Source: Zopfochytrium polystomum
Taxonomy: Eukaryota; Chytridiomycota; Chytridiomycetes; Chytridiales; Chytridiaceae
Assembly (NCBI GenBank): GCA_025765615.1
Contig: JAIVFJ010000282.1
Location: forward strand, 1 to 64,000
Direction: 5' to 3'
DNA: 64,000 bases
Shown: positions 1 through 33,062 of the stretch, piece by piece
How the letters are laid out: every line of letters starts with the position of its first letter
Numbering within the stretch: the first letter of the stretch is position 1
Notes under the pieces: generated by a model
Seen by the model: only the letters and a program-made list of their open reading frames with translations
The model's database searches: none
What the model was told of the DNA's origin: nothing
Program-made: the position numbers and the translations under genes

Positions 1-3000
1 CCGCAACCTTTGGCGAGAGCCGAGCAGGAGGAAGCCGCCTCGGCGGCCCCGTTCCCGTGGGATCCGTCAAGGGCCACGTCGGTCACGGCGAGTGCATGAG
101 CGGCGTCCTCAGCGTCATCAAGTGCGCCCTCATGCTCAGCCTCGGCGAAATGTACCCCACCGCAAACTGCCGCGGGCTGTCGCCCAAAATCGCCGGGCTG
201 AACGTCGCCGTCCAGACCGCGTACGGACCGTTCCCGCGAACCACCGCGGGCCGCCCGCGTCGCGTTGCTGTCAACTCGTTTGGATTCGGCGGGTCGAACG
301 CGCACGCCGTTTTGGAACAGGCGCCCCGCGCCGCGTTGTTTGACGGCGCGCACATCGCCGTCGACAGCGAAACCGCGTTCCCCGTGGTCGTGGCGGCCCA
401 TTCGCTCGCGGGCCTGCAAAACACCCTGAAGGCCGCCGTGGAAGAATCAAAAACCCCCGCGGCCCTCGCTTCATACCTCATCGCCCGATCGCACCTCTCC
501 ACCATGTCGTCGGCGTCCACCGTCCGCCTGGCGCTGGTCGTCGACGCCGAAAGGTTCGCCCGGCTGCCTGATCACTGCGCGGGCCTCCTCCACCGTCTGC
601 CCGACCCCGCGGCGGCGGCGGTGAAACCCAACACAACCGTGCCCCTGTACGACTCTAACAGAACCGTCGACGCGTACCTTTCCGTCCGCGAGCTCGGCGC
701 TCCGCCGCCCAGCGGCCACGTGTTTGTGTTTTCGGGCCAGGGCGGCCAGTGGCTCGGAATGGGCGCGGCCCTGCACCAGCGATTCCCTGTCGTCCGAGCC
801 TCCATCGCCCGCGCGAACGCCGCGCTCGCCGACCTGGGATCTACCTGGCTGCCCCTCCGCGACCCAGGTCTCCTCTCCGACGCGGCACTTACGCCATCGC
901 CTGCGACCGCCGCCACCGACGGCCCCCACGACCTGCACGTCGCCGTGACCGCCGCCGGCCTTCTGCAGCTCGCCCTCGTCGACCTCCTCGCCTCCTGGGG
1001 CGTCCGCCCCGCCGCCTGCCTCGGCCACAGCCTCGGCGAAGTCGCCGCCGCCTACGCCGCAGGCGTCCTCGACTTTGACGCCGCCGTCGCCCTCCTCCTC
1101 GCCCGCACCCGCGTCCTCCTCCGCCTCCCGCGCGGCCGCATGGTTGCCGTTCGCGCCCCCGCCGCCGCAGTCGACGCCGCCCTCCGCGACGCAGGCCTCG
1201 ACGCCGTCGCCTGGGTCGCCACCGTCAACGGCCCGTCTTCTTGCACCGTCAGCGGCCTGCCCGACGACGTTTCCGCCGCAGAGTCCGCGCTGCGGAGCAA
1301 GGGCTTTGCATTCAAGGCCGTTCAGGTCGAGAAGCCGTATCATACGATGTACTTGGACCCGTTCAAGGCTGAGGTCTGTACTGTTGGATTGGGGCGAGTG
1401 TTTTTGACGTTTTTAATGTGGGCTCACTTTGCATTTTTTTTTTTTTTCCGTATGATCTTGCGTGGGGCAGTATTTGGCTGCTATATCCCATCTACGATTC
1501 AACCAACCTCGTGCTACCTTTGTGTCGGGCATTACTGGAGCCGTCCCAGCGTAAGCAGTCATTTCATTCCCTCCTTTAATTCTTACACCTACTTTTTTCT
1601 GACAGTGTCGTTGATGCCGAATATTGGTGGACAACCGTGCGCAACCGAGTGCAGTTCTCGAGCGCCCTGCAGCACGTCAAACAACTCATGGCCTCGTCGG
1701 TTCCCACTGCCAAGGACGCGCCCGGCGCGAAACTAGGTCCCAGCTCCGCGTTCATCGAAATCGCACCGCGAGCGATCCTGCAGCGGGATATTGCGGCCGT
1801 CGTCGGCTCCGGGGCCGTCCTCGGCTGCACAGGGGCGAACCCGCCGTCGCCGTCGCCGTCGCCGACTGCCGCAACCTCTGCGCGGCCCGTCGTCGAGCTC
1901 GTCGCGAACCTAATGACCCGCGGTCACCACTGCGACTGGAAAGCCCTCACCGAGTCATGCGTCCCCGCCTTGGCATGGGCCGACGTCGCGAGAACCGTGC
2001 AGCTCTCGTACAGGCACGACTGGAATCACCAAAGGATCCTGCCTAGCTTTGCCACCAACCCGCAAACCTTGGCGACCGTCGCTGCCCCGGATCCGGCTGC
2101 GCTGAGCAAAGTCGCCCCAGCGCCGGTCGCGACAACGGCACCTACTCCAGCTCCGACAAACAGCAGCCCAGCGCCGTCGTCGTGGCTCTTTTTGGAAGAC
2201 CATCGGATCCAGTCGAACGTCGTGTTCCCCGGCATGGGCTACCTCACCGCCGCCATGGCCTCAAAGCGCCTCGCAAAGCTCCGCACTGTCACCCTGCGCA
2301 ACATCGCCTTCAAGAACATGCTCCCGCTGGACCACCGCGCCTTGGCCCAGCCTGGCTTCGAGCCCCCGATCGATCTGTGCTGGGAAAATGACCGGTCGTT
2401 CGCGGTCTGCGACGCGTCCTCGTCCACGGCTTACTGCGTCGGCCGTGCCTCCGACGAGAAAGTCGCTTTTCATTCGAACTCGCTGAGCGAAATCCGCTCC
2501 GCCATGGGCGCTAAAATTACAACCGTCGGCGCCGAGACCGTGTACACCAAGGCCGCCGGCCTTGGCCTCCACTATGGCCCCGCCTTCCGCCTGGTCCAAA
2601 AACTCGAAATCGGCGCCCAGTGGGTGATCGGCCACGTGCGCGTGCCGTCGCCGCAGAACCCGTCGCCGCCGGAGGCACCCCCGACCCTCGCGGCCCTCCC
2701 AAACGTCCTGGACGCCTGCCTCCACCCCTTCGTCGCGCTCGATCTGGACTCCAGCGCAGTCACCGTGCCCTCCGGTTGCGGCCTCATGCAAGTCTCCCGC
2801 TCGCCGCTGCCGACCGACAACGAGCCGCTGCTCTCCGCGTGTCGACTCACCTGCGTGACCCGCACCGCCTGCCGGCTATCCTTCCGCGTGTTCACGACCG
2901 CCGGCGAGCTCGTCGCCGCCGCAGACGACTTTGAGCTGAGCTTCCTCCGGAAACCAAACGCCGACCGCTCCCCGGCCGCCGCCGCCGCAGATGCGGCTGC

Positions 3001-6000
3001 CAACCCGTTGGAGCTGATCCACCAGGTCGCGTTCGGCCGCGTTGCGACCCCTCAGGCCGCCGCCGGCGGAGCAGCACCGCGCTGCGCCGTGCTCGTCCGC
3101 GAAGGCTCGACGCTCCTCGTCGAAACCCGAGACGACGACAAGGTCCGCGTCGCTTCCCGGCTCGAGGACGTTCAGGACCTGCCTGATACTGTCGTCGTCG
3201 ACGTCCGTCCCGTCGCGAAGCCGGACGTCGCGGAAACACTGGAGACGCTGAAGGCGCTCCGCGCCGCCCGCAAGGCGATCCCCTATGTCGTGATCGTCGC
3301 CGCGGATTCTCCAGTCGACTCGATGGGGAACGCGGCCTTGTCGGTGGCTGGGCTGGCTCGAGCGTTCCGCGTAGAATACCAGGTTTGTTACTTTTTTCCC
3401 CTTCTATTTCCCCCCTCTCCCTTCCTTTTTTGGCCTTTAGCACTGGGACTTACGCGCTTGGCAAACGTGTTAAGGTCACAACCGGCACGCACTACCCGAT
3501 TCTGTGCATCCAAATCGAACAAGAGCGCCTCCCGTCCGACCTCGAAATCGCCCAGTCCGTTTTACACGTGCTGCGTGCCGCCGGTCCGCCCGAAACTTGG
3601 AACCTCGAGCCAGAGCTCAAGATCGCAGCGACGAACGGTCGTGTGCTCGCAAAGACCGTCGAGCGCGTCGCGCTGTCGCCGGAACCGCACGACTTCGTCT
3701 GGGAGGCGGCCGCCGGCGCCGCCCAGATCTCCAAAATCAAGCCGCGCCGCGTCGTCCTGCCCGCCGCCGCCGCCCTGCCAGACAACCACGTCGTCGTCAA
3801 GGTCGACACCGTCGCGCTGCATCTGAAAGACGTCCTTCTGGCCCTCGGAAAGCTTCCGGGCATCGCGTGCCAGCTGGGAATTGAAGGTTGTGGCGTCGTC
3901 GAGGCCAGCACGAATCCGGAAATTCAAGCCGGAGCTTATGGTAAAAAAATCTGTTCGAGTTTGACACCCCCCTTTTTCGAACCAAAACTTGGCTTCTAAC
4001 TGACTTTTTTTCTTTCCTTTTTTGTTTGTTTGGGATTAAAGTGTACGTCTCTGCGAGGGAAGGAGGCCTGCTCGCAACGCGGGCAATCGTCGGCACCCAT
4101 ACAGGCGTGGTCATCAAGATCAAACCAAACTTTCCCATCGGCACCGTCATGGTCCTCGCGACAGTCCTCCACGGCCTCCGCGACCTCGCACGCGTCACGC
4201 GCGACGACGTCGTCCTGGTCCACGCCGCCTCCGGCGGCGTCGGCCAGGCCGCCATCAAGTACCTCCAGTCCCTCGGCGCCACCGTCATCGCCTCGGCGTC
4301 CCCGAGAAAGCACTTGTTCCTCCGCACAGAGTTTGGTCTCGACCAAGTCGTCAACTCGCGCGATCCAAAGTCGTTCTACGAAACCGTCATGAAGATCACC
4401 GCCGGCCGCGGCGTCTCGGTCGTACTGAATTCGCTCGCCGGAGAGAGTCTGATGGAGAGCGTTCGCTGCCTTGCTCCTCAAGGACGATTTGTCGAGATTG
4501 GAAAGGTGCGCGGGGGATGTCGTTTTGTTTTGTTTTTTTTTGTTTTTTTTTTTTTTTTTTTTGTGGTGTTTTACTTGTCTCGTTGTTGCTGACCCTCTTT
4601 GCATTCGACTGATTCGGCATCATTCACACCCCTTTGCTTAGACCGACATGCTGAAAGGCTCGAACCTTGGAATGAACCTGCTCTTGAACAACATCTCGTT
4701 CTTCTCGTGTCACTTGGACCTGCTGCCAACGCCCGAGCTGATTCGATTGTCCAAGGACGCGGTCGGCCTCTTGGAGACCGGCCAGCTGTCTGCGATAAAG
4801 GAGACCACCTACCCGATAGCGTCTCTCGAAAACGCGCTTCAGCTGATGATGACAAGCTCGCACGTCGGCAAAGTCTGCGTCGCAATGAACGGCAAGTTGG
4901 ATCCCTCTCGTGGAGCGCTCCCGGCGCGGGCATTTTCGCCTGATGGAGTGTACTTGTTTACAGGTTAGTTTTGTGTTCGTTAAAAGGTTAACAGCGGTAA
5001 TAACCCAACCTGTGCAGGTGCATTCGGAGGAGTCGGCTTGCAGCTTGCGTTGTGGGCTGTAAACAACGGTGCAAAGTCGCTTGTTCTCACCACCAGCCGC
5101 CCCGTGACCGACGCCGTTGCAGAGCACCCCATCGTCGTAGGAATGAGGGAAATGGGAGCGCGCGTGGACGTCCTTCAATGCAATGTCGCCGACGCAGCCC
5201 AGGTGGAAGCCCTCTTTGCGGACCGTCGGATCACGGGCGTACTCCATCTCGCGAACCGCCTTGACGACGCCCTGATTGAAAACGTTTCAACGTCGCGGCT
5301 GCGCTCCGTCTTGCAGCCCAAGGCCGTCGGGGCGTGGAACCTGCACCAAGCGAGCTTGAAGCACGACGTAAATCTCTTTGCCATGTTCTCCTCCGTCGCC
5401 GGCTGCTTCGGCCACTCTGGCCAAACCAACTACAGCGCCGCAAACGCCTACCTCGACGCCCTCGCCATCGCCAGACGCCAGCAGGGCCTGCCGGCTATCT
5501 CCGTCTCGCTGCCCATGGTCGACGGCGCTGGCATCCTCGCAAGGTGGGAGCACCAGCGGCTCCGCCAGATCCTCCTCGACCGATACGCACAGTCCATCTC
5601 CGTCGCCCAGCTGCTCGCCTGCTTGGACTCCCTCCTCGAGCCACGCGCCGACCCGCCCCCCTGCGTTGTGCTCTACGACCACTGGCACACCGCCGCCATC
5701 TCCAACCTGCGCATCGCTCCGTCGTGGATCGAGGGCGTTCTGCCCAACGCCGTGAAAAAGTACGGAACGCCACAACTCCCGCGGCGCGGCCCGCCCCCCG
5801 CACCGGCCGCGACGACAGTCGCCGCGAGACCCACCGTCAACCGCGCGACGAAACCCGTCGGATACGAGGTCCCAGCGGCGAAAGAAGCGCCTAAACCGCG
5901 CGCACAGCCGTCGCCGTCGTCGTCGCCGACCCACGCAGGGATCAACTACCGCGAGATGCTCAAGGCAAAAGTCGCGGCCATGCTTGGGATGGCCGTCGAA

Positions 6001-9000
6001 GAAATGGACGACGCCACCCCGCTGCAGTTCTACGGCCTCGACAGCCTCGCCGCCGTCGAGCTCGTCAACTTTTTGCAGACCGAGGCCGCCGTCGCCGTCC
6101 CACAGTCCGCGTTGCTGAGCGAGGATCTGTCGATCGCATCGCTCGCGAAGATGCTGGAAGAGTCCCCTTCGTTGGTGCGACAGGACGGGCAAGGTGCCGG
6201 TCGTGCGGCGTTGGTCGGAGAAGAGACGCAAGCGGTCTCGGTTGTTGAAAGAAGCATTGTTTCGGTCGAGACCCGCGACATTCCCACCCAAGCAGTGTAT
6301 GGGAAAGAAATCGCGCCGCAGCATCTCCGTCGATTCGACTCCGAAGTCTCTGCAGCCATCGATTTGACTCCACGTCCCGCGGCGTCGCAACAGTCGCAGG
6401 CTCCGGCCTCGCGGCCGGAGCCGCACGGTGAAACGCGTTCTTTGAGCTTCGACGAGGCAAAGGCCATCTTGGTCGACAAGATTGCGACCATGCTCGGCAT
6501 GGAAGCGAGCGAAATGGACGGGTCCACCCCGCTCCAGTTTTACGGCCTCGACCGCCTCGCCTCGGTGGAGCTCCTGAATTACCTGCAAACGGAAGTCGGA
6601 GTCACAGTGCCCCAGGCCGATTTGCTCGACGAAATTGTGTCCATCGACTCGCTCGCCGCCCGGCTGTCGACGGCTGCCGTCGCCGCGCCGCCTCCTTCTG
6701 TCGTTAGCGCAGGCGAAGGGTACGGCGCGAGTCGCCGAGAGGTCCTACAATACGAGGAGGCACTCGACGTGAAGCCTGTCCCAGTATCTCTGCAGCGCGA
6801 GGAAACGTTCTACGACGAGGAACCCGTTCCAGTGTCGACGCAGAGGGCGCTTCTTCACGGCGAGACCTCCGACTACGAGTTGGTGCTACGGAACAAAATT
6901 GCAAGCATGCTTGGAATGATCGCCACCGACATTGACGCGACCGTCCCCTTGCAGTTCTACGGGCTCGACAGCCTCGCCTCGGTTGAGCTCATCAATTTCA
7001 TTCAGTCGGAACTGGGGGTCGCCATCCCCCAGGCTTCGTTGCTCGAAGAAAACGTCTCGGTCGCCTCCGTCGCACGGCAGCTGGAATCGATGGCGGGACC
7101 TTTGCAGTCGAGACTGTCGACCAGGGACACTACTAACGTCGCTGACTCGAATCAAACTTTGGCCGAGAGCACCAGCGCTCCGGTACAGCAACGGCAGCAT
7201 TCGGCCGCCAGCCTCCTCGACGGCAAACCCCCCGTCAAGCAGTCCACGCCGCTCGGCGGCGGCAGCAATAGCGACGAAGTGATTGTCGAAACGACCGACC
7301 GAGCCGTGTTCATCACCATCAACCGTCCCGAGCGCGACAACGCCATGACGGAAACCATGCTCGACAAAATCATCGAGGCTGTGGACCTCGACAAGATGAT
7401 CGTCGTCGACTCCGTCGGCCCCCACTTTTGCACCGGCTGGGACCTCTGGAGCTCCGACGCCGGCTTCCACGACGAAGGAATGCAGCGCTCCATCCTAAAG
7501 TGCGGCGCACTCATCGACCTCCTGAGACGCTGTCGCCTCCCCGTCGTGTCCGTCTGCCGCGGCGGCGTGCGAGGCGGCGGCATGCTCCTCCCTTGCTGCT
7601 CCGACCTCGTCCTCGCAGAGACAAAGACCACTTTTGCGTTCCCGGAAATCAGGCTCGGCGGCATCCCCGGCGTCGTCTCCGTCGCCGCGCTCAACAGGAT
7701 CCCGCAGCACGTGGCGAAGCGCATGATGCTGCTGGGAACCAACGTTTCGGCACTGGAGGCAAAGGGGTTCGGTCTGGTCGATGTTATCGCAGAGTCGGCA
7801 GAGGAACTAGCAGGTTCGGTGCCTTGCGCTCTTTATCAAAATTGCTATTTTTTAACGCAACTCTTTTTGTTGGCAGTCGAAAAGCGTCGGTTAGTCAATC
7901 GAATGCTGGCAGTTGACCCCAAGCTCATGTCGGCAACGAAAGCAAATATTGCCGACGAGAACCTCACTTTCGAGTCTGCGATCGTCCGCATCGGAGCACT
8001 CAACTCTTCCATGCGAGGCACCGACACACCCAGCGCAACCGCCAACCTCGTTCGACTTGTCCAGGTGGAGGAAGCGATTGTCGCAATCGAATTCGACAAC
8101 CCGCCCGTCAACAGCATGACCGAAAAAGTGGCCGCGCAGCTCAAGCTGATCGTCCAGGAACTGCAGCACCGCTCCGACGTCGCCTGCGCGATTCTTCGCG
8201 CAAGGGGCGACCACTTTTGCACGGGCGGCCAGCTCCAGTCCCTCTTCTCCGCAAAGCAGTCCCTCGCAGAGGTTGCGTCGACGATCTACGCCACCTTCAG
8301 CGCCTACGCCGACCTGGCGACCCTCCCGTTCCCCGTTGTCGCCGAACTCAAAGGAAAAGTCGTCGGCGGCGGCCTCGCCCTCTCCCTCCGCGCCGACTAC
8401 AAGTTTGCCGAATCGACCGCCACCTTCTCTACGGGCCTCGTTACCCGCGGCCTCTGCCCCGGCGTGGAAATGAGCGCAAACTTGGAGGCCCACCTCGGTC
8501 GCGCCCGCGCCATGGAGGCGTACCTCGACAACAGGACCTTCCCGGCCGCGGACGCTCTCAAGATGGGCTTGGTAAATGCCGTCGCCGAATCGCGCGAGCT
8601 GCTGGAGGCCGCCGTGCTGGCAAAGGCCCGCGAGCTCGCCCGCGCACCGCGCCAGGGTCTTCGGTCCTCGCTGCGGCTGTTGCGGCCGGCCGTTGATCAC
8701 GCGCTGTTGATGAAGGAGTCGTTTGAGCTGGCGCGGTGCATCACCGAGCGCTCAAAGGGCGGCGACAGTCTGAAATTCACGCAGGCGAGAGCGGCTCGAC
8801 AGGCCAACGAGACGGATCGTTTTGGGTCGGCACACAGGGCCAACCTCCTGGAGGATCGTGTTGCGGTCCGGAGCGAACCGGAGAGCGCCTACGGTCTTGA
8901 TTCGAAAATCAACGCGCCGCTCGCAGAGACGTATCCCTTGCGACGACAAAGGTAGAGCATCGGCAGCGAAAACATTTTGATCGTCTCATCGCCTCAAAAA

Positions 9001-10400
9001 AAAACCCCCCCACTCACTCACTTTGTAGGTCCAACAGCGAACTTCCCCGACCGGAGGACGTCGGGATCTTGGCGATGGAAATCGCGTTTCCGAGTGGAGC
9101 CGTCGACATGGCTGAGCTCGAGATCAGCGACGGCGTGCCGGGCAGGTACACGAAGGGCCTCGGCTTGCAGAGAATGTCGGTCACGGGATGCAATCAGGTG
9201 AGGACTGACCTCCCGAGATAGAGGGCGTTTGCAAAAGCTGCACTCGTTTAATCCCACCGTTGGAAAATTTCACTGCACCAGGATTCGGTTTCGATGGCAA
9301 TGAACGCTATCGAACGACTTCTTGCAAAGACCGGTGTGGAGCCATCAAAGATCGGCCGCATCGACGTCGGAACGGAAACGCCAGTCGACATTTCAAAGTC
9401 CATTACAACCTTCCTCACCCAGCGCTTTGGCCCCGACGCCGATCTGGAGGGCAGCGATTGCATCACCGCTTGCTACGGCGGAACTGCAGCGTTCTTCAAC
9501 GCCGTCGCGTGGGTGCAGTCAGAGGCTTGGAACGGCAAGCTGGCCATCGTCGTCGCGTCCGACGTGTACCAGGGCAAATCCGAGCTGCACTTCTTGGCCG
9601 GCGCCGGCGCCGTCGCGATGCTCATCGGCCCGCGCGCAAACGTTGTGCTCGGCCGGCCCCGCGGCACCGTGATGACCCACAGCTGGGACTTTTACCGCCC
9701 CGTCGGAAAGCAGGACGGCCTGCCCGTCGTCAAGGCCAAGGAGTCGGTCGACGAGTACGTCCGCGCCGCCCACGTTTGCCACCAGCGCTTCACGGCCCGG
9801 CTCGCCGCCACAGGAGCACCAAGACCATCACCACTGTCCACGCGGCTCGTCGACGCCTACGATCACGTCGTGCTCCACTGCACTACCTCGAGCATGGCGA
9901 AGCGCGGCGTCGCGGCGCTCGTCAAGGCCGATGGCGCCGAGCGGGCGGCCGAGGCCGCCTCCCGCGCCTTCGAGACCAAAGCCCGCGGCGGCCTCGAGGC
10001 CAACGCGCAGCTCGGCGCCCTCTACACCGCCTCCGTCTGGATGGGCCTCGCCGTCCTCCTGGACACCCTCGGCGACGCTGCCCCCGGGAACAAGGTGCTC
10101 ATGTACAGCTTCGGCTCCGGATCCACCGCCGCGCTGTTTGAGCTCCGTGTCGCGAAACGCCTGGCCCCTATGCACGCTCGACAGCGGCTGAACGACCGCG
10201 AGACGGTCGCCGTCGACGAGTACCGCCGATTGCGCGATGCTTTCATCCGCGACGTGCACCGCGCAGGCCGCGCTCACGAGCCAGACAGCTTTGTGGTCCG
10301 CGTTCGTCCCGGAGAGTGGTACCTCGCCGAGGTGCTCGAAGATGGGGAGCGCCGGTACGCGAAGCATTCCGGCGCTGTGACGCCTGCTATGTACTACTAG
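1..10400 (+). CDS. Highly reducing type I polyketide synthase fused to ECH1-ECH2-HMG synthase beta-branching cassette (5' end outside window)
   Basis: Iterative-type PKS; the start lies left of the window. Exons read from splice signals and frame: 1-1373, 1471-1550, 1606-3382, about 3475-3940, 4042-4505, 4642-4963, 5018-7813, 7877-8951, 9029-9197, 9282-10400. They join without a stop to about 3,212 residues. Domain order by window residue: KS C-terminus 1-100 (GSVKGHVGHGE, NSFGFGGSNAH), AT 240-530 (GHSLGE), DH 680-935, structural KR about 1000-1140, ER 1150-1480 (GGVGQA), KR 1490-1745, three ACPs 1800-2190, two crotonases 2240-2430 and 2490-2700, HMG synthase 2793-3212. No C-methyltransferase is visible. 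Introns are 54-136 bp. The acceptor before 3475 is the least certain: AG at 3440 has a better pyrimidine tract but breaks frame. Inference: it makes a reduced polyketide with a beta-alkyl branch. Domain calls are firm; product and loading chemistry are unknown. Confidence 0.93.
3..330 (+). other. PKS ketosynthase domain, C-terminal part
   Basis: The reading frame is open from base 3. It shows the KS signature with the conserved Lys and catalytic His (GSVKGHVGHGE) and the end-of-KS motif NSFGFGGSNAHAVLE. The active-site Cys region lies left of the window, so one cannot tell whether this KS is condensing or decarboxylating. Confidence 0.93.
720..1606 (+). other. PKS acyltransferase domain, interrupted by two short introns
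   Basis: It starts with VFVFSGQGGQWLGMG. GHSLGE carries the nucleophile Ser. Where malonyl-specific enzymes have HAFH, this one has PYHT, so specificity is not readable. The AT C-terminus is restored only by an 80-bp exon at 1471-1550 (reads FVSGITGAVPA), between introns 1374-1470 and 1551-1605. It then continues as DAEYWWTTVRNRVQF, the usual D-x-x-Y-W-V-x-x-x-R element. Confidence 0.88.
2185..2965 (+). other. PKS dehydratase domain
   Basis: Double-hotdog dehydratase. The first catalytic motif is WLFLEDHRIQSNVVFPGMGY, with the DH His. Next comes LHYGPAFRLVQ, then LDACLHP with the catalytic Asp of the second hotdog. Both catalytic residues are present, so it should be active. The region from about 3000 to 3640 fits the structural half-KR that precedes ER in fungal reducing PKSs (SVAGLARAFRVEY). 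Confidence 0.85.
3690..4940 (+). other. PKS enoylreductase domain
   Basis: MDR-type NADPH enoylreductase spread over three exons. The N-terminal half reads VALHLKDVLLALGKLPG and LGIEGCGVVE. The nucleotide site is VLVHAASGGVGQAAIKYLQ, followed by VVLNSLAGE and GRFVEIGK. Introns are 3941-4041 and 4506-4641, both in register with the domain. Confidence 0.9.
4955..5760 (+). other. PKS ketoreductase domain
   Basis: SDR-type ketoreductase. The Rossmann motif TGAFGGVGLQLA is rebuilt across intron 4964-5017. GVLHLAN follows, then the catalytic Ser in FSSVAG and the Tyr in NYSAANAYLDAL. All catalytic residues are present. Confidence 0.9.
5941..7100 (+). other. Three tandem acyl carrier protein domains; the middle one lacks the phosphopantetheine serine
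   Basis: ACP1 (5941-6165) and ACP3 (6880-7095) carry YGLDSLA, with the Ser codon at 6043-6045 and 6970-6972. ACP2 (6448-6665) is equally well conserved but reads YGLDRLA, with CGC (Arg) at 6553-6555, so it cannot accept the 4'-phosphopantetheine arm. All three share the MLGM...DxxxPLQFYGLD frame, which indicates duplication within the gene. They are separated by roughly 90- and 70-residue disordered linkers. None has the Trp six residues after Ser that flags many bacterial beta-branching acceptor ACPs; each has Leu there. Confidence 0.92.
7255..7813 (+). other. Enoyl-CoA hydratase-like domain 1 (ECH1 type, predicted HMG-ACP dehydratase)
   Basis: Crotonase fold. It opens with VFITINRPERDNAM. 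Oxyanion-hole elements are PHFCTGWDLWSS and RGGVRGGGMLLPCCSDLVLA, then FAFPEIRLGGIPG. The order ECH1 before ECH2, and the F-x-x-P-E stretch as in PksH-type proteins, suggest dehydration of the HMG-like intermediate on ACP. Assignment to ECH1 rather than a generic hydratase is inference. Confidence 0.75.
8065..8720 (+). other. Enoyl-CoA hydratase-like domain 2 (ECH2 type, predicted decarboxylase)
   Basis: Second crotonase domain: IVAIEFDNPPVNSM, then DHFCTGGQLQSL and GKVVGGGLALSLRADY, then ATFSTGLVTRGLCPGVEMS. The last segment resembles the F-x-P-G-M region of PksI/CurF-ECH2 decarboxylases rather than a typical hydratase Glu motif. A 63-bp intron (7814-7876) separates it from ECH1; being a multiple of three with no stop, it hides inside an open frame. 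Confidence 0.72.
8952..9028 (+). other. 77-bp intron joining the ECH2 and HMG synthase parts, with an in-frame TAG at its donor
   Basis: The donor is GTAGAG at 8952, and the acceptor TTTGTAG ends at 9028. Splicing joins AG to G and keeps the frame. If unspliced, the frame stops at 8953-8955, giving a PKS that ends after ECH2. Confidence 0.8.
9045..10400 (+). other. 3-hydroxy-3-methylglutaryl synthase (HCS-like) domain at the PKS C-terminus
   Basis: The domain begins PEDVGILAMEIAFPSGAVD, spans intron 9198-9281 and ends at the stop at 10400. Three family catalytic residues are recognisable: Glu in VGTET (9375-9377), the acyl-enzyme Cys in TACYGGTAA (9471-9473) and His in VVLHCTTSS (9876-9878). 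GAGAVAMLIG, LYTASVWMGLA and MYSFGSGST also match the family; LYTAS recalls bacterial PksG/HCS proteins more than the primary-metabolism enzyme. No Met precedes the conserved core in this frame, so it is made only as part of the PKS polypeptide. Confidence 0.9.
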
Positions 10401-10838
10401 ATTCGTTCAAACGAGATGTTTTGAGTTTTCATTTTTTTTTTTCTTTTTTTTTTTTTCTTCGTGAGTGCACCGAGGCAGATATGATTTTGAAGCTACATTA
10501 TTACCGTTCGCCGCCCCCAAATTGGTGGGAAGACCAAATGAAGGTCAAAAACAAGTAACCGGTCTGAATGAAAAATAGAGAAATTCAACCTCTTGCTTTT
10601 CACCCGCGTTGACTTACACACCAATGGCATGCCGACGTGGCACTTCACACTGTATGTAATCGGTTCCCATATTATAAAAGCTGTGACGTCGGCTTTTGCC
10701 TCGAGCTCAAGCACAGCAGTCCAAGTCGACCCTTTGCTCTCTGGACCCCACCTAGTCAGTTCACGCTCGTTCAAAATTCTTGCAAGTCGACCAAAGTGGG
10801 AGAGATCTAAATATATCCCTTGCATATCCACAAACTAG
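10401..10838. other. PKS 3' flank, no gene seen
   Basis: Contains T-rich tracts at about 10428-10460, as expected of a 3' UTR. No coding signature was found. Confidence 0.5.
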
Positions 10839-10910
10839 TGGAGGCACAGGGGATCGAACCCTGGGCATCTCGCATGCAAAGCGAGCTATCTACCACTGAT
10901 ATATACCCCC
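10839..10910 (-). tRNA. tRNA-Ala (UGC)
   Basis: On the minus strand a cloverleaf folds with anticodon TGC in loop TTTGCAT, flanked by the stem CTCGC/GCGAG. The T arm is AGGGTTCGATCCCCT and the acceptor GGGGGTA/TGCCTCC. The D arm differs from the usual Ala sequence but stays paired (TATC/GATA). Confidence 0.9.
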
Positions 10911-11511
10911 ACATACTACCATCTGATGCCGTAGAATTCTAATTCTCTTCACGGCACTATTCCAATCCGTCAGCCCATGCCCGGAAAAGGAAGGGAAAAG
11001 AAAAAAAAAGAAAAAAAAAAAAAGAAAAAAAAACGCAACCACCTATCAGCCACGGTGCGGTTGCGGGTTTTGCAGGTCGAGGCTGGCGGCACGGTTCGCG
11101 GGATGCTCGCTTCCGCTCGACCGAATGCGCCATAAAAATGAACATTAGGACTTTCCAATAAGCGATTGGATCCATCATTAAAAAGTAATGCTGGGCCTGG
11201 CAAAAGCCGCGGCGAACACAAGCGCGCCGCCCCCCCCCAACTAGTTGGAGACCCGTTGACATATAAAGAAACGTGAAAAATTGCGGTCATGACTGACAGC
11301 ACAGCGAAGCCGACAAGCCCAGCCAACCCCACCCACCCCCTTCCCCCGCATTCCCAACCATGCCCGGCGGAAAGAGCAGTCTGCACGGAGGGTGGCGGCG
11401 GTAAGCGTAGTCGTACGTGTAGTAGCAGCAGCAGCAGTGGTAGTAGTAGTTTACCTTACCCACCACCAACCCAACCAAAAAATAGCCTTCACGGCAAACC
11501 TACCTCCCTCA

Positions 11512-11606
11512 CGATGCGCTTCGCGCAGTAACTCCTCGGCACGGACAAGAACGAGACGTGCATTGTCGGCGACAGGATGCACACGGATATACTCGCCGGC
11601 ACGTTT
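11512..11606 (+). pseudogene. Relic of a HAD-superfamily phosphatase (NagD-like) motif
   Basis: Frame 11532-11606 reads LLGTDKNETCIVGDRMHTDI, then LAGT. This matches the G-D-R-x-x-T-D-I-x-x-G element near the end of HAD phosphatases, with the usual preceding L-G...E-T. A stop interrupts just upstream (after MRFAQ) and similarity fades after LAGT, so only this segment survives. It could also be a small exon of a gene I cannot reconstruct. Confidence 0.45.
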
Positions 11607-11945
11607 TGCCACCGTCCTCGTCATGATCTGCATCACGAACATCGGCAACCTTTTTGACGACGCGTATCGCCCGTTCCTCGTCCTCAACGGCGTCGGTGAG
11701 GTCGCCGGGTTCAGGGGCCGTTCGGAGGAGGGCGCCGCACGCGAGGAGCGAGGAGCGCGTCGATGGGCGCGGCTAAGGGGTGGGGCAGCTTGGTTCCGGA
11801 ACATTTCCTTTTGCTTTTGTATGCAAGGTCCCGCAGCAGCGGCAGCACAAGCAGCTGGTTGCGTTTGATTTAGGCTTCATGAGATTGGAGGCGGGGAGAT
11901 GGGGGGTGGGGTTCCCAAAGTAAAAACTCTCTTCTCAGCGCCGTC

Positions 11946-18898: not shown

Positions 18899-19816
18899 GA
18901 TGTGGGGATCCGGGTGAATGAACACGAAAAGGGAGTTTGGGGGAAAGGCTCGTTGTGTTGAGGGGGGGGAGGTTTTTTTGTGTGTGTGTGTGTGAATGTG
19001 TCACAGTGTGCGTCGCTGGGAATTTGGCGGTGACTGCTGCGCCCTTTTGTACTGCTGTGAAAGCCACTGGTGGGGGCGGTGGGGGCGAGTGGGGCCGCCC
19101 CAGCGGAGGGTGGAGGGAGGGAGGGTGGAGGAGTGGAGACGGACGCGAACGCGAAAAAAAAAAAAAAAAAAAAAGCGTCTGTCGGGAGACACGCAGGCCA
19201 AGACACAAACATCTCTCTCGTTCTTTGCACAATGTGGTTGTGGGCTGGAAGGCCTCCTCCACCAACATGAATTCCACTGTGCACGGCGCGCCACCCACCC
19301 ACCGTGCTTGGTAGCGCCACACACCGCGCTGACCACATTGTCGGTGGCCCAACCGCTGCGATCACCCCCCTCCGCGGCCGCCTTCGGGGTGCAGGGCACC
19401 CACCTCGTTGAATTCTCTTGTATTCGGGATCTATATATGCGCTACCCAATCCGACCGTTGTTCCCAAAGAAGAGTGGCGATCACTTCTGTGGGCCAGAGT
19501 TGTGATTCGTCGGCTCCCGCGAGATTCTCCGCCAGGGTTATTTTTTCGGTTTGTGGGATCGGGGAAAGGGAAGAAAGACATCCGGCAGTCGGAGGGCAAA
19601 TCCGGTCCAATCAGCGCTCTGTGGCTGGGCGCTGTAAAACACATCCGGAGAAAACGCGCCAATCTGAGTCTGTGGCGCCTTCACGTATAAAAAGCGTCGC
19701 TGCAGGCTAATGAATGGCCCCACTTCCAAGCAACAAGCCATCAAGCAACATCATCAAGCGCACCGCTTAGTCTCTCGCCACCGAAGAGAAAAACAGCCCT
19801 TTCTTACCCTCGGCAA

Positions 19817-20563
19817 ATGGGATCAACCACCACCGTCGTCTTCATCACCGGCGCCAACGCCGGCATCGGCTTCGACACGGCCGCCCGCCTCGCCTCCTCC
19901 TCCGAAGGGCACTACCACGTTGTCCTCGGCGTCCGTTCCCTTGCCAAGGGAGAACAAGCCGTCGCCGATCTCCGCGCCCGCGGCGCCGCCGGCCCGCTGA
20001 CCATCGTCCGCATCGACGTCACCGACCCGCACTCGGTCGCCGCCGCCGCGTCCCAAGTCGCGGCCTCGCTCGGCCGCATCGATGTCCTCGTCAACAACGC
20101 CGGCATCGTCGTCATGTCCGGCGATCTCGCGACCCAGCTGCGTGACACGTTCGCCACCAACTCGACCGGCCCCGCCATCGTCACCGACGCCTTTGTGCCG
20201 CTCTTGAAAAAATCCTCCGATCCCCGTCTCCTCTACGTCACCAGCGAGCTGGGGTCCATCGGCGACCCCAACTCGTGGCGCTGGGGTCTGCACGGACTGC
20301 CGTACCGCATGAGCAAGGCCGCGCTGAACATGCTGGCGGCCTACCACCATCGCGAGTTTGCAGAGTGGGGGTGCAGGGTGTGGACCATGTGCCCTGGTTA
20401 CGTCGTCACGGGCTTGACCGGGGAGGAGGATCGTGCTGCGAGGATTGCGCGCGGCGCACTGAGTTCCGAGACGAGCGCTGCGACGATCGAGTCGGTCATC
20501 CAAGGAAAGAGAGATGGCGACGTGGGCAAGTTTATCCACAAGGACGGCGTGTATGAGTGGTGA
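19817..20563 (+). CDS. Short-chain dehydrogenase/reductase
   Basis: A single-exon, 248-residue classical SDR. The NADP-binding motif TGANAGIG is at residues 12-19. LGVRS with Arg after beta-2 suggests NADP preference. NNAG is near residue 93, then the catalytic Ser region (VTSELGS) and Y-x3-K (YRMSK), followed by CPGYVVTGLTG. The full family length and an early Met just before the first strand support the start. Carbonyl reductase-like; substrate unknown. It sits 9 kb from the PKS and could act as a tailoring enzyme, by position only. A TATA-like TATAAAAAG lies about 130 bp upstream (19686). Confidence 0.88.
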   Translation: MGSTTTVVFITGANAGIGFDTAARLASSSEGHYHVVLGVRSLAKGEQAVADLRARGAAGPLTIVRIDVTDPHSVAAAASQVAASLGRIDVLVNNAGIVVMSGDLATQLRDTFATNSTGPAIVTDAFVPLLKKSSDPRLLYVTSELGSIGDPNSWRWGLHGLPYRMSKAALNMLAAYHHREFAEWGCRVWTMCPGYVVTGLTGEEDRAARIARGALSSETSAATIESVIQGKRDGDVGKFIHKDGVYEW

Positions 20564-24364: not shown

Positions 24365-25738
24365 TCACCCAAGAACTCTGGAAGCCCCCGGCTCCTCGTT
24401 CTCCCAAACCGCATCCACTTCCGGATTCTGACCGCGAAACCGCCAATTCTCGTCCACCCCGCGCGTCAGGACCCGCCGCGCCCGCCCCGCCAGAAACTCT
24501 AGGTCCCGTGCGATCCGCCGCGCGTTCCGGCTCTCGTAGCAGAAATACGCCCGCTTCCAGTCCACGCCGCGCGCCTCGCACTCTGCCAGCGACGCGGAAA
24601 GGCGCTGCGTCGGAACTCGCGCGAACCCGTCGCGGCTGCAAAAGTACCGCCACGCGCTACCGCGGCCGTACAGGTACCAGGAGCGGTTGCAGGAGAGGAG
24701 CGCGATCGCGCCTGTTTGCGCGTGGACTGGAAGGTGTTTGAGGAGGGTGGTGATCACGACGTGAGCGAGGCGATCGGGGGTAAAGCTCGACGCTGGTGGT
24801 GGTGGTGCTGTAGCCATCGAGTCGTTGGATATGTGAGGGACTACCGGGAGCGGAACGACCTCAGCCGCGCCTTCGTATGTGCCTCGCTTCAGCGCGAGCA
24901 GACTGGCTGTGTACCCGTCGAAAATTTGCTCCCCCTTGTCGTAATCAGCAAGGTCCACCGGCTCCTCGCTGTTCTCTTCCCGCTGCCGGTCTAAAAGAGT
25001 CGCGATGCTCTCGCCTCCCCAACCGTCGCTCCACCAAAGTGAGTCCGGCCTCGCCAGAACGAAAAACTGGGGCCTTTTCAACCGGGGGTAGGGACCTTGT
25101 GTTGTTGGAATGTCCGCATCATCCGGGCAGCTCAGGTGGTCTCCTCCCCATTTATGATAGAAATTCTCGTTGGTCTTTAAAAGATAAGTGGCGAGACAGA
25201 CGAGCGGAATCGCCCGTTGCTCGAAATAAGCGTCCAGCCACTTTGCGCAGACCGCATGGAATGGAAATCCGTGCACGCTTGGGTTCGCGAAAACTGTGGT
25301 GAGGGAGGGTTGTGGATGATTCGCGAAATGCATAAGGTGTTTTTTTTAAGGAGCAACAAACCTGGATGAAACCCGCTGGAGCGAAAGACGACGATGATTG
25401 ATCTGTCGATATTCGCCATTCCGAACCAGCAAGACGGCGCAAGATCTGGATCCTGGTTGGACTGGTCCGAAACGCCTTCCAGTCGGCCCCTCATAGCGTG
25501 CAGCGACCGGTTTCCAGAGTCCTTGCCAACGGGGGACCAGCGGCCATCGTGTGTGAGGGCTTTGGGTGCGGGGATTCGCAAACACGGCATTTGGCTTCGG
25601 GCGTGATTGGATGGGAGACAAGGGGATCTTACCTCTCACGGCCGATTGAAAGGGAATCGGCTGGCCTCGGTAGCTCGTACTTTGGCCGACGGTCTTGCCG
25701 CAGAGAGCGCAGTACGACGATCCGGAACTGCGCGCCAT
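24365..25738 (-). CDS. F-box-like protein, copy A
   Basis: Exon 1 (25738 to about 25633) contains a CALCGKTV pair. Exon 2 (about 25559-25362) has SCWFGMANIDRS, and exon 3 (25293-24365) starts FANPSVHGFPFHAVCAKW. The intron 25361-25294 has a GTTTGT donor and CACAG acceptor. The C-terminal half contains an F-box-like helix set (DRLAHVVITTLLKHLPV, ALLSCNRSWYLYG, WRYFCSRDGF) followed by RGVDWKRAYFCYESRNARR. The layout, Pro-Phe-His segment then F-box, occurs in fungal F-box-like proteins of unknown target; an SCF substrate-receptor role is inference. Copy B lies directly upstream on the same strand. Confidence 0.6.
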
Positions 25739-25834: not shown

Positions 25835-27240
25835 TTACCGTTCTTCAGATTCCTCAGGATTCGCAGCAACCTCCGCCAGCGGGTTCCGACCAGGCAGCTT
25901 CCAATCCTCGTCCACCCCTCGCGTCTGCACTCGCCTCGCCCTTTCCGCCAAAAACCCAAGATTCCGCGCAATCCGCCGCGCGTTCCTGCTCTCGTAGCAG
26001 AAATACACCCGCTTCCAGTCCACCCCGCGCGACTCGTATTCCGCCAGCGACTCGCCCACGCTCTGCGTCGGCACCCGCGCGAACCCGTCGCGGACGCAAA
26101 AGGACCGCCACGCCGTGCTGCGGCCAAAGTGGAACCACGCCCGGCTGCTCGAGAGGAGCGCGAGGGCGCCGGCGGTCTTGCGGGCCACGGGGAGGTGCAC
26201 GAGAAGCGTGGTGACGAGGTCGTGAGGGAGGCGATCCGGTGCGAGGCTCAGAGATGTGTTTCTTGTTGTTGTTGTTGCGGCGGCGGCGGCGGCGGCGGCC
26301 CGGTCGTCGGTTGGGTGGGAGACCGTCGGGAGCGGAACCAGCTCGGCGGCGCCTTCGTACGTGCCACGCTTCAAGGCTAGCAGGCTGGTAACGTTGCCGT
26401 CGAACAGTCCCCCGTTTTCCTTGTTGTAGCGATCGGGTTGGTTCTCGTCGTCTGCTTGCTCGTCTTTCTCCTCGTTCAGTATCTGGTTCACGAGCGATTC
26501 AATGCTCGCTCCACCCGTGTCGGGGTCCCACCAGATCGAGTCCGGCCGCGCCAAAACGTAATACTGCCACCGCTCCACGCGGGGAAACTGCAGCTGGGTC
26601 TTTTGAATGTCGGCGTCGTCGGGACAGTTCAGGTGGTCTCCCGTCCATATGAAAAAGTACCCCGGGCTGGTGAAGAGTAGGTACCTTGCAAGGCACGCAA
26701 GCGCAACTCCCTTGTCGCGGAAATGCGCGTCCAGCCACTTTGCGCAGACCGCGTGGAATGGGAACCCGGGCACGTCCGCTCCTTTTTCCCAAGCCCCCCC
26801 GGATGGTCAATTCACTCTGCGAGAAGATAAAAGTTTACCTAGTGGACCGAGCCGGAACACAACCTTGCTCTCCCTGTCCACATCGACCATCCCATACCAG
26901 CAGGACGACGGCACCGCAATGTCCGGGTCCGGCTCGGTCGGATCGGAGTCGCCGTCGATCCGGCCGGGTGGCTGCGGCGGTGGCAGGAGGCCGGCTCTTC
27001 CGGAGCCGTGGCCCACCGCGGTCCAGCGACCTGCTAGCGTGAGACCTTTTCCCAAGCGATTGGAGTAGGTAAGTTTGGCGACACGAGCGGACCGATTGCG
27101 ACCCCCTTCTTTTCTTACCTCGTCCCAGCACCTGAAACGGAAGCCGCCGTCCGCGCCCGAAGCCGTGGTGCACGTCTCGCGTGTGCTCGCGGACGGTCTT
27201 GCCGCAGAGGGGCGCAGAACGAGTTGAAACCGGATCGGGC
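25835..27240 (-). CDS. F-box-like protein, copy B
   Basis: A paralogue of copy A. Exon 1 (about 27240-27122) has a PLCGKTVREH segment. The middle exon (about 27060-26839) has SCWYGMVDVDRES, and the last exon (about 26790-25835) carries PGFPFHAVCAKWLDAHF, SCPDD-like LNCPDDADI, then DRLPHDLVTTLLVHLPV and RGVDWKRVYFCYESRNARR. Most of the last exon aligns end to end with copy A, so this is a tandem duplication. Linker regions (26260-26310, poly-Ala/Thr) differ. The acceptor of the last exon is uncertain. Confidence 0.6.
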
Positions 27241-28183: not shown

Positions 28184-29460
28184 ATGTCGTTTAACCTAAA
28201 CTCGTTTGTTGGCAAGTTCACTGGCAAAACGCTGACGGAATTCAATGACTTTATTAGCAACCTTCAGATCAAGGTTATTGGTGAAAAATGAATTCAGGAC
28301 CTAACGCAGACGGACCTATTCCCTTTTGAGAGACCTTTCTGCAATAAGGAGGCCTACAACACGTACGTCCCACACCTACCCAAGGATCAGTGGGACGGAT
28401 GGCGTTTCTTGTCCACAGTGACGCTAAGCTTCAATCTCTTAATTCTGATTTCTTAACTTCTCTCTCTGATGATTTTACGGATTTTCCTGAAACTGACGAC
28501 TCTCCTTCTTTCCAGCCTGTCGAGCCACCACTTGACTCTTACTGTCGATTATCCAACTCTCCTCCTGACGGTGCTCCCTCCTCTCGTACTCGCCAGCAAC
28601 TGCGCCAGGGGGGGACAGCTGCCATCATCATCAACAAACACCTCAGATCAACCTCCAACTCTTCCGATAATGTCGATAACGACAATGGTTGGAACTCTGA
28701 CACATTAGCTGTCGTCCTGGGTGAAGATGAAGACAAACCTGAAGAGAGCGTAGCTCCAACGGCAGACTGCGGAGCAGCATCCATTAACACTGAACTGGAA
28801 CCTGTCATTGAATCATCACTTCCACCATCAGTCATTGTCAACATCAAAGATGCACCAACTGGACTTCGCAAGCTACTTGCAAATCGAACAATCATTCGCC
28901 ATCTCTTGCAACTCTACCTTGCATCAGCTAAACCAGAACCACACTTCCCAAAGCACTTCCCTGAGAACCAATCCACCAATCACAACTCCCACCAGTGCCA
29001 CGTTCCCGCATCAGACTACAATGAAGAATGGATTGCATCTGAGCTTGAGGAGCTTCACTCTCTCATGGACAAGCACAAGGCCTGGGAATGGGCAGTTCTT
29101 CCTCCTGGCAAACGTGCAATGTTCTGCAAATGGGTTTATGCCTACAAGCTTGACCCCTTTGGCTGGCTGAAGCGATGGAAAGCTCGTCTTGTCGCCTGTG
29201 GAAACACCCAACGCGAAGGCATCAACTACACAGACACCTTTTCTCCTGTTGTCCAGATCCAGGCCATCTGACTGCTCATTGCAATCAGCCTTGCTTTTGA
29301 CCTCAAGTACCACAGCATGGATGTCAACACAGGCAACCTGCACGCTTTCCTCAAAGAAGTCATCTACATGCATCCACCAAAAGGCCATGAGTGATTCACT
29401 CCAGATGGAAAGAAACTATTCTGCAAACTCCTCAAGAGCCTCTATGAACTCCATCAATCT
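28184..29460 (+). pseudogene. Ty1/copia remnant, 5' part of reverse transcriptase, interrupted by the gypsy insertion
   Basis: Starts with a gag-like ATG at 28184. From 29020 it reads copia reverse transcriptase: EEWIASELEELHSL, AMFCKWVYAYKLDPFGWLKRW, KARLVACGNTQREGINYTDT, FSPVVQIQAI. Stops (TGA at 29269 and 29393) fall where the family expects Arg or another residue, consistent with C-to-T decay. The frame runs into the gypsy LTR at LYELHQS and resumes beyond it at 33416 (SG, stop, NW). Confidence 0.85.
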
Positions 29461-29813: not shown

Positions 29814-32183
29814 TCATCTCCCCCTTTTAGGCCTCTTCTGCAACTTGGTGGGGTACCTGGTCTTGAACTTGAGCAGAAGGTCTTGGCAGTGAGTGAGGTT
29901 TGACTCAGGTTCCCAGGTGTTGTCAGCATCTGAGTAACCTTTCCACTTAACAAGGAACTTGAGTGTCCTTCCAAACCACTTGGCATCCAAGATTTGTTCA
30001 ACCTCAAATTCCTCTTCACCTTCTACCTCAACTGGAGGAGGAGGAGGAACAACTCTGCCTGGAATGGAATTGGCCACAAACTTCTCTAAAAGGCTGACAT
30101 GGAAAACTGGGTGGATCTTCATGGATGCAGGGAGATCCAGCTTGAAGGTGACTGGATTGATTTGCTCCAAGATCTTGAAAGGACCCAACTTGAGGTTGTC
30201 TAGCTTGGGACTTGGTCTTTTGGTCTGCAAGTTCTTCCTCAGAAGCCAAACTTGCTGACCCACAGCAAGGTCATGGTCCATTCTGTGAGTGTTGGCAAAT
30301 CTTGAGGCATCTTCTTGGGCTTGCTTCAGGGTGGAGTCCAGGAAGGAGTTGATGATCTTGAGCTTATGTAAGTGTGAAGCCGCAGCAGGAGCTTGGACAT
30401 TGGATAGGGTCTCTTGTCCCAGAAGATCTCCTCTTGGATTGAAGCCATAGGTTGCAAAGAAAGGAGATAGCTGGGTGCTTGAGTGGAGAGAATTGTTGAG
30501 AGCAAATTCTGCCAGTGGAAGGAAGGTGGGCCAATCATCCTGTTGATAGCTGACATAGCACCTCAAATACTGCTCCAGAGTCTGGTTTGTTCTTTCTGTT
30601 TGTCCATCAGTCTGAGGGTGATAAGCAGTTGACAGTTGAGACTTGATTCCAAGGGCTGCTGTGAGTGCTTTCCAAAATTGAGATCTGAACTGTGGTCCTC
30701 TGTCACTGACGATTGACTGAGGCAGCCCATGGAGCCTGAATATGTGCTGCAAAAACAGGTCTGCTGTTCCTTGTGCATCTATATTCTCAGTGCAGGGGAT
30801 GAAATGGGCCAACTTTGTCCTTCTGCAGATGACAACAAGGATAGAGTCAAATCCATGGGATGGGGGAAGTTTCACAATGAAGTCCATGGATATTGATGAC
30901 CAAGGGCTGATGGCGATTGGGAGGGGCTCCAGAAGTCCATAGGGCTTGTGTCTGCTGGATTTGTTTCTTTGACAGGTTTCACAGCTGCTGACATAGTTCT
31001 TGATGTACTTCCTCATGCCCGGCCAGTAGAAGTCTCTGGAAACAAGCTCATATGCCTTGTGCTCTCCTGGGTGTCCAGCTGTTGCTGCATCATGCCTTGT
31101 CTTGAGTATCTCAAGTTTTTCCTCCTCTTGGCTGATTTGAATCTTGTGAGGCTTGGGGTCCTTGGAAATAGCATGGGCCCACACACTGTCAGGAAACAGT
31201 GAAAGGTGTGTCTTGGATGGTGGGGTGAAACCATCTCCCCCTTCAGGTGCAAGGTCTGTCCTTCTGTGCTCATCAGTGGGGGGGCTTGAATTCTTGACTG
31301 GGAACTGCGATTCTTGAATCTTTGACTGAGGGTTCTGTTCTTGGCAAAGACTGTGAGCTGTGGAGCTTGAATCTTGAATTTGGACTGTGAACTGTGGTAC
31401 TTGAATCTTTGACTGTGGGTTCTGTGAACTACAGACTTGGCCATGACTGTGAGCTCTATGAGCTGTACTGGAATCTTGACTATGAACTGTGAACTGTGAA
31501 ATTTGAATCTTGGCTGGGATCTGTGAGCTGCAGGCTGATACTGGAGCTGTCATTTGTGGTTGACCTTGGATACTAGGCTGAGAGCCTTGAATCAGGGACT
31601 TGAGAGCATGAGACTTGGAGGCTTGACTTGAGTTTTGGGTGACTGTTCCAATTGGTGGAGGTTGGACTTGACCAGTGACCCAATCAATGTCAGGGTTCTG
31701 GGCTTGCAGCCATGGTAATCCCAGGATGACAGAGAATGTGGGTGAGCCAAGATCCAATACTTCCAGGTTGACCATGGATGGTGGAAAGTCTTGGATGTGG
31801 AGGTTTAGCTTGGTTTCATGGCTGATTTCCTTGAACAGAGCATGATTGGCAAAGTGAACCTTGAGGGGTGTGGATTTCTTGATGGTGGGAATGGCACAAG
31901 ACTTGGCAAGGGTGGCATCAATGATGTTGCAGGATGATCCAGAGTCGATAAGGGCCTTGGTTGTGATGGTTGACTTGGGTGAGAGTTGAATCTTGACATC
32001 CATGGTGAGTTGGTGGGGCTTGGAATCTGAGGTGTTTGTGGTGCTGGTGGTGGTGATGAAACAGGGGCAGCTTGGAAGGGGGTCCAGGGAATTGCCCCTC
32101 AGTGAGCCTGGACCTGGGAGTTTGGGTGCTTCTTCCTTGGGCAGTCCTTGACAGCATGCTCCTTGGAGCCACAGTAGAAACAC
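29814..32183 (-). CDS. Pol of the gypsy element: protease, integrase and chromodomain, no reverse transcriptase
   Basis: 789-residue intact frame. The retropepsin-like protease has the active site ALIDSGSSCNIID and a second motif VILGLPWLQ. A linker of about 130 residues follows, with imperfect copies of a unit resembling KIQ-x-x-QF-x-V...QDSS. Next is the integrase zinc finger (TRHDAATAGHPGEHK, CETC), then the DDE core (SMDFIVKLP, VSDRGPQFRSQF, TDGQTERTNQTLEQYLR). The chromodomain at the end reads KFLVKWKGYSDADNTWEPES. There is no Y-x-D-D motif or RNase H: the repeat linker sits where they should be. Reading it as a frame start at 32183 assumes -1 frameshifting from gag. Confidence 0.9.
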   Translation of the reverse strand: MFLLWLQGACCQGLPKEEAPKLPGPGSLRGNSLDPLPSCPCFITTTSTTNTSDSKPHQLTMDVKIQLSPKSTITTKALIDSGSSCNIIDATLAKSCAIPTIKKSTPLKVHFANHALFKEISHETKLNLHIQDFPPSMVNLEVLDLGSPTFSVILGLPWLQAQNPDIDWVTGQVQPPPIGTVTQNSSQASKSHALKSLIQGSQPSIQGQPQMTAPVSACSSQIPAKIQISQFTVHSQDSSTAHRAHSHGQVCSSQNPQSKIQVPQFTVQIQDSSSTAHSLCQEQNPQSKIQESQFPVKNSSPPTDEHRRTDLAPEGGDGFTPPSKTHLSLFPDSVWAHAISKDPKPHKIQISQEEEKLEILKTRHDAATAGHPGEHKAYELVSRDFYWPGMRKYIKNYVSSCETCQRNKSSRHKPYGLLEPLPIAISPWSSISMDFIVKLPPSHGFDSILVVICRRTKLAHFIPCTENIDAQGTADLFLQHIFRLHGLPQSIVSDRGPQFRSQFWKALTAALGIKSQLSTAYHPQTDGQTERTNQTLEQYLRCYVSYQQDDWPTFLPLAEFALNNSLHSSTQLSPFFATYGFNPRGDLLGQETLSNVQAPAAASHLHKLKIINSFLDSTLKQAQEDASRFANTHRMDHDLAVGQQVWLLRKNLQTKRPSPKLDNLKLGPFKILEQINPVTFKLDLPASMKIHPVFHVSLLEKFVANSIPGRVVPPPPPVEVEGEEEFEVEQILDAKWFGRTLKFLVKWKGYSDADNTWEPESNLTHCQDLLLKFKTRYPTKLQKRPKRGR

Positions 32184-33022: not shown

Positions 33023-33062
33023 GATGGCAGAGAGTAGTGGGAGAGGGTGAAGTGAATTATGA

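Follow-up and report, generated by a model that had tools for sequence, protein, structure and literature searches.

A predicted highly reducing polyketide synthase of Zopfochytrium polystomum with a fused ECH-ECH-HMGS cassette points to beta-branching in cis

A polyketide synthase gene ending in two crotonase domains and an HMGS domain

Zopfochytrium polystomum is a chytrid of the order Chytridiales. The window analysed here comprises the initial 64 kb of contig C282 of its assembly (80.2 Mb in 761 contigs), and all coordinates refer to it. A polyketide synthase (PKS) gene lies at its left edge and was modelled with 10 exons spanning 3-1373, 1471-1550, 1606-3382, 3475-3940, 4042-4505, 4642-4963, 5018-7813, 7877-8951, 9029-9197 and 9282-10400. 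The domain order in the model is KS(partial)-AT-DH-ER-KR-ACP-ACP-ACP-ECH-ECH-HMGS. Because the contig begins inside the KS, it lacks the 5' end of the gene and, with it, the KS active site. The features are as follows.

3..10400, + strand: whole gene, 10 exons, 5' end lost at the contig edge (nine GT-AG introns, single 3212-residue frame up to the stop)
42..168, + strand: C-terminal part of the incomplete KS (Pfam PF02801, positions 76-118 of 119)
717..1772 (end approximate), + strand: AT with GHSLGE motif and two introns within (Pfam PF00698, motif)
2192..3032 (ends approximate), + strand: DH (Pfam PF21089 and PF14765, motif)
3634..4891 (approximate), + strand: ER with introns within (Pfam PF00107 in exon 5; extent by alignment with the Blyttiomyces protein)
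4963..5575, + strand: KR with GAFGGVG and YSAAN motifs, intron 6 within (Pfam PF08659, motifs)
5959..6156, + strand: ACP1, Ser present, codon 6043-6045 (Pfam PF00550)
6469..6666, + strand: ACP2, Arg for Ser, CGC at 6553-6555 (Pfam PF00550)
6886..7080, + strand: ACP3, Ser present, codon 6970-6972 (Pfam PF00550)
7273..8008 (end approximate), + strand: ECHa, first crotonase, likely dehydratase, intron 7 (7814-7876) within (Pfam PF16113/PF00378, tree, Glu column)
8032..8818 (end approximate), + strand: ECHb, second crotonase, likely decarboxylase (Pfam PF00378, tree, Glu column)
9051..10377, + strand: HMGS with intact Glu, Cys and His, intron 9 (9198-9281) within (Pfam PF01154 and PF08540, alignment A3, model of P0003)

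The uninterrupted frame at 4984-8955 matched KR, three PP-binding and two ECH_1 stretches in Pfam, and HMG_CoA_synt_N and HMG_CoA_synt_C were matched in the frame at 9252-10400. Introns 1-7 are predicted splice sites, and introns 8 and 9 are spliced in the same way in the public record P0003. The motif GLDSL, with Ser encoded by AGC, was found in ACP1 and ACP3 and reads GLDRL in ACP2, which, judged by this replacement of Ser by Arg, is a dead carrier. An earlier note on this DNA had read KS-AT-DH-ER-KR-ACP3-ECH-ECH-HMGS in one frame; the order and the fusion stood in the 3212-residue model, and the reading had to be amended in that the KS is partial and ACP2 lacks its Ser. The highly reducing PKS set of KS, AT, DH, ER, KR and ACP was present by Pfam and motifs, with the KS in part. 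Pfam found no methyltransferase domain in the scanned frames of the Zopfochytrium PKS or in its Blyttiomyces counterpart. Since there is a single module and the host is a fungus, the predicted synthase is likely used iteratively.

Elsewhere in the window, a short-chain dehydrogenase gene lies about 9 kb behind the PKS (19691-20560, + strand). Two frames on the - strand (24368-25345 and 25838-26806) are similar by eye (FPFHAVCAKWLDA...) and gave no Pfam match. Retroelement pieces follow, namely an RVT_2 stretch of a retrotransposon (28348-29268, + strand) and a Ty3/gypsy-like gag with a protease/integrase part and a chromodomain (29817-33064, - strand). In the rest of the assembly, the contigs C2 and C444, and likewise C243, C323 and C247, carry matches whose scores and frame lengths are the same, pointing to haplotigs or recent duplications.

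The joined frame and the public annotation

The public protein P0003 of Z. polystomum (509 aa, 'hydroxymethylglutaryl-CoA synthase') is 100% identical over the query and is annotated alone, as would be expected if PKS and HMGS were separate genes and the joined frame were never made. Several observations make this arrangement very improbable. The start of P0003 is an internal Met within the frame of the second crotonase, the frame stays open upstream of it, and nearly all of the first 81 residues have a pLDDT below 50 in the predicted structure. A further HMGS record, P0004 (468 aa on a contig of 1507 bases), has a start that resembles the tail of ECHb, although the match is weak (it scored 42, and the best of 200 shuffles scored 41). 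Furthermore, the counterparts in Blyttiomyces and in bacteria are fused. Because the Blyttiomyces protein aligns over 97% of the 973-residue tail with 55% identity, the fusion is not a product of chance. On the gene model, the PKS-ECH-ECH-HMGS fusion of Zopfochytrium is real and has been shortened in the public annotation.

Fused relatives in a second chytrid and in bacteria

When the 973-residue tail was used as query in a protein search, 7985 candidates were scored and 10 proteins were obtained at E <= 0.001. Seven of these combine ECH, HMGS and PKS domains, and the other three are bacterial PKS-type proteins with ECH and without HMGS. The order ACP-ECH-ECH-HMGS was seen in six of the seven fused matches (P0123-P0128), including the Blyttiomyces protein (P0123, Blyttiomyces sp. 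JEL0837, HDU76_012478, 'hypothetical protein'), which has two ACPs with Ser and whose annotated chain is without KS. The remaining one, P0129 (2080 aa, source ena), has its HMGS behind a KS, with crotonase stretches after the HMGS, and forms a long branch in the HMGS tree; its sequence reads as the same parts in another order.

A prokaryote genome collection was scanned with four fused HMGS, which gave 257 relatives. Among the best 80 of the 257, five loci stood out, sharing 56-69% identity with the bacterial query; the next-best one shares 33%. All five are in metagenome-assembled genomes (MAGs), and the fused cassette occupies a single uninterrupted frame in four of them.

L035, Myxococcales MAG: ER(part)-KR-ACP-ACP-ECH-ECH-HMGS
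L036, Rhodospirillales MAG: ER-KR-ACP-ECH-ECH-HMGS-GNAT
L037, Alphaproteobacteria MAG: ACP-ECH-ECH-reductase-HMGS, plus a second ACP stretch without assigned place
L038, Candidatus Thiosymbion MAG: KS(part)-AT-ECH-ECH-HMGS-ACP
L039, Symploca MAG, frame 1: KS-AT-DH-ER-KR-ACP-ECH-ECH
L039, Symploca MAG, frame 2, overlapping frame 1: HMGS(first part missing in frame)-C-A-KR-ACP

In the Symploca locus the two overlapping frames join inside the start of HMGS (9932-10010), either by an assembly error or as a true break. The GNAT/FeeM-like domain after the cassette in L036 (frame 2-5329) raises the possibility of release by N-acylation. In L037, genes for the three parts of a 2-oxoacid dehydrogenase complex adjoin the fused gene on the other strand (4947-11662); if the complex is a pyruvate dehydrogenase, it could be a source of acetyl-CoA, or else a chance neighbour.

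The five domain orders in bacteria indicate that the cassette is a unit placed in several module contexts. Between the two chytrids, identity was 70% for ECHa, 59% for HMGS and 51% for ECHb, and 43, 37, 57 and 60% for AT, DH, ER and KR of the PKS core, respectively. As the cassette values are comparable with or above those of the core, the cassette has been kept as well as the core. The gene is not a fungal singleton, as fused relatives occur in Blyttiomyces and in bacteria of several groups. Judged from these sequences, the fusion is not unique to Zopfochytrium and is conserved across chytrids and bacteria, through common descent of the fused cassettes.

The fused HMGS belongs with eukaryotic HMG-CoA synthases

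The HMGS tree was built from 56 sequences, comprising 14 fused, 15 eukaryotic, 10 free-standing beta-branching and 17 further HMGS from bacteria. All 14 fused domains fell into one clade (100/100), which was joined to the 15 eukaryotic sequences (100/100), and the 10 free-standing beta-branching HMGS of the CurD type formed their own clade (100/100) apart from them. The free-standing set was anchored by a Symploca protein (L135) whose match to CurD of curacin stands at 7e-272, against only 2e-24 for eukaryotic HMGS. A joint clade of fused and free-standing HMGS was rejected with a p-AU of 3e-64 in a test chosen with the tree already known; together with the separate clades, this rules out the fused HMGS as a member of the PksG/CurD lineage. 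Within the fused clade, the two chytrids and P0004 (100/99) stand against the other eleven (99/93). The separate mevalonate HMGS of the host, encoded elsewhere in its genome, groups with fungi (97/92).

In direct comparison, the fused Zopfochytrium HMGS showed the reverse of L135: it matched human HMG-CoA synthase at 8e-60, the best among solved structures, CurD at 1e-13 and PksG at 9e-12. Against TIGR01833 (eukaryotic HMGS, cut-off 286.2 bits), P0003 scored 283.5 bits, which is 2.7 under the cut-off, and P0004 reached it with 314.3 bits. The predicted structure of P0003 has a mean pLDDT of 81, with low values only in the first 81 and the last 7 residues, and is nearest to HMG-CoA synthases with CurD and PksG close after, a fold comparison that cannot separate the kinds of HMGS. 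The catalytic Glu, Cys and His, which the earlier note had judged intact, were invariant in all 38 rows of alignment A3. Where mevalonate HMGS has the Asn of its GNxYT motif, the Zopfochytrium domain has another residue (GALYT). The eukaryotic type of the fused HMGS suggests that this domain, at least, originated in a eukaryote.

The two crotonase domains form lineages of their own

The crotonase tree contained 59 rows, including 13 ECHa, 13 ECHb, 8 trans ECH1 and 6 trans ECH2. Each of these was recovered as a clade (ECHa 100/99, ECHb 100/98, trans ECH1 98/92, trans ECH2 100/100), and both ECHa and ECHb fell outside the two trans clades, so that their assignment to the trans ECH1 and ECH2 lineages was ruled out. 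ECHa lies in the same half of the midpoint-rooted tree as ECH1 (93/95), and no specific tie of ECHb to trans ECH2 was found among the 59 rows. Within the ECHa clade, and again within the ECHb clade, the two chytrid sequences branch separately from the bacterial ones. The HMGS and crotonase trees are concordant, and the three domains therefore moved as a set and did not come from the sampled known cassettes. Nor is this a known bacterial cassette joined to a fungal PKS, as in the trees the HMGS goes with the eukaryotic type and the crotonases lie outside trans ECH1 and ECH2.

The catalytic columns were read with the Glu164- and Glu144-type numbering of rat crotonase. At the Glu164-type position, ECHa has Glu in 12 rows and Asp in one of 13, and ECH1 has Glu in 8/8, whereas this Glu is absent from ECHb (13/13) and ECH2 (6/6). 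The Glu144-type Glu is absent from all 40 rows of ECHa, ECHb, ECH1 and ECH2. Among control crotonases, the Glu164-type Glu was present in one of five general ones and in two of the host's own three, so that its loss is frequent among other crotonases as well. The pattern, expected if ECHa and ECHb perform the ECH1 and ECH2 steps, fits a dehydratase followed by a decarboxylase, with the limit that loss of Glu alone is not specific.

If ECHb were an isomerase or a weak decarboxylase, the branch would be processed incompletely and a carboxymethyl, hydroxy or exomethylene group would be left. Its separate lineage without a link to ECH2, and its score of 94 bits against a 'polyketide synthase' crotonase model with a cut-off of 215, would agree with such an outcome. 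We nevertheless regard it as improbable, as ECHb is without both Glu residues in the manner of the ECH2 rows.

Proposed mechanism

The beta-branching role that had been proposed for the locus is supported by the intact triad of the HMGS, by the Glu residues kept or lost in the crotonases and by the common cassette. We consider it fairly probable that the gene encodes a highly reducing PKS, likely iterative, which would use the fused ECH-ECH-HMGS to branch the chain it is building with beta-methyl (or related) groups. A beta-ketoacyl chain would be held on ACP1 or ACP3, and the Cys of HMGS would be acetylated, most likely by acetyl-CoA. By attack of the acetyl carbanion on the beta-keto group an HMG-type thioester would form, from which ECHa would remove water and ECHb CO2, leaving a beta-methyl enoyl chain that the ER may reduce ahead of the next round. 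Trans cassettes depend on recognition of the carrier; placement in cis would stand in for it. The earlier note had named acetyl-ACP as the donor, which was not supported: neither a KS N-terminal match, as expected of a free KS, nor an ACP beyond the gene's own three was found on contig C282. Acetyl-CoA is the likelier donor on account of this absence from the one contig.

The cassette might instead act once, on acetoacetyl-ACP, to give a 3-methylcrotonyl or isovaleryl starter on the same protein, with ordinary reducing cycles in the later rounds. Of the possible substrates, acetoacetyl comes closest to what a mevalonate-type HMGS uses, and in work on the ACT-toxin cluster of Alternaria HMGS and ECH are proposed as the source of an unsaturated isovalerate unit (PMC8102738). 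The three ACPs and the reducing domains in one protein suggest repeated access, and the bacterial contexts are varied, including one in which C and A domains follow the cassette; both are still compatible with a starter role, which we regard as rather unlikely. Branching of the growing chain by the fused cassette is the reading we prefer, and in its phylogenetic setting the cassette is most likely a cis-acting beta-branching system, independently assembled and common to fungi and bacteria. In its fullest form, this would be a convergent second beta-branching system made of a mevalonate-type HMGS and two crotonases from outside the known lineages, loaded by acetyl-CoA, acting in several rounds and spread between bacteria and chytrids, which we put forward tentatively as a possibility.

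Comparison with known systems

Most of the beta-branching known is carried out in trans, as an addition to bacterial assembly lines. In its established mechanism, acetyl-ACP is provided by a donor ACP together with an inactive KS and is joined by HMGS to the beta-keto group; dehydration by ECH1 is then followed by decarboxylation by ECH2 (PMC10006238). The trans HCS cassettes (CurD, PksG, VirC/VirD/VirE) resemble the fused one in having HMGS and two crotonases, chains bound to carriers and often repeated ACPs (PMC10006238), and they share the Glu pattern of ECHa and ECHb. They differ in being mostly free-standing enzymes, whereas HMGS, ECHa and ECHb of Zopfochytrium are fused and each is of another lineage. 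In the annotated trans plasmid loci, a free ACP stood beside HMGS in six of eight and a free KS in six of eight.

Crotonases in cis are described in bacterial PKS, such as the ECH1 in OnnB of onnamide and others, and likewise place a beta-branching crotonase inside the PKS chain, but the passages on them do not mention a fused HMGS (PMC10006238, PMC8739492). In fungi, beta-branching through separate HMGS and ECH genes has already been proposed for the ACT- and AK-toxins of Alternaria; these clusters also combine fungal HMGS and ECH with an HR-PKS, and acetate labelling is said to agree (PMC8102738, PMC9134587). The genes there are separate, and the likeness stands on the published descriptions. 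XilA of xylariolide D is likewise a fungal chain-branching HR-PKS, for which an acetyl branch is proposed, but its order is KS-AT-DH-MT-ER-KR-ACP and the text of the paper is without mention of HMG (PMC9147667). Eukaryotic mevalonate HMG-CoA synthase is the closest in sequence and tree and has the same intact triad, whereas the fused HMGS is the last domain of a PKS and is about 59% identical between the two chytrids. Within the open-access literature searched, no paper joined 'Zopfochytrium' with 'polyketide', and no description of a PKS with a fused HMGS was found in the titles, abstract openings and passages covered.

Significance

A fused form of beta-branching, present in fungi and bacteria and put together from enzymes of different descent, would imply two separate origins of one chemical logic. 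With all parts on one chain, the gene allows direct tests of how the carrier is chosen, where the acetyl group comes from and when branching takes place, and for engineering it is a compact module. It is also an entry point to the genetics of branched reduced polyketides in chytrids, and, if the convergent reading is true, isoprenoid-like chains could be made by a single protein that needs neither the mevalonate pathway nor SAM.
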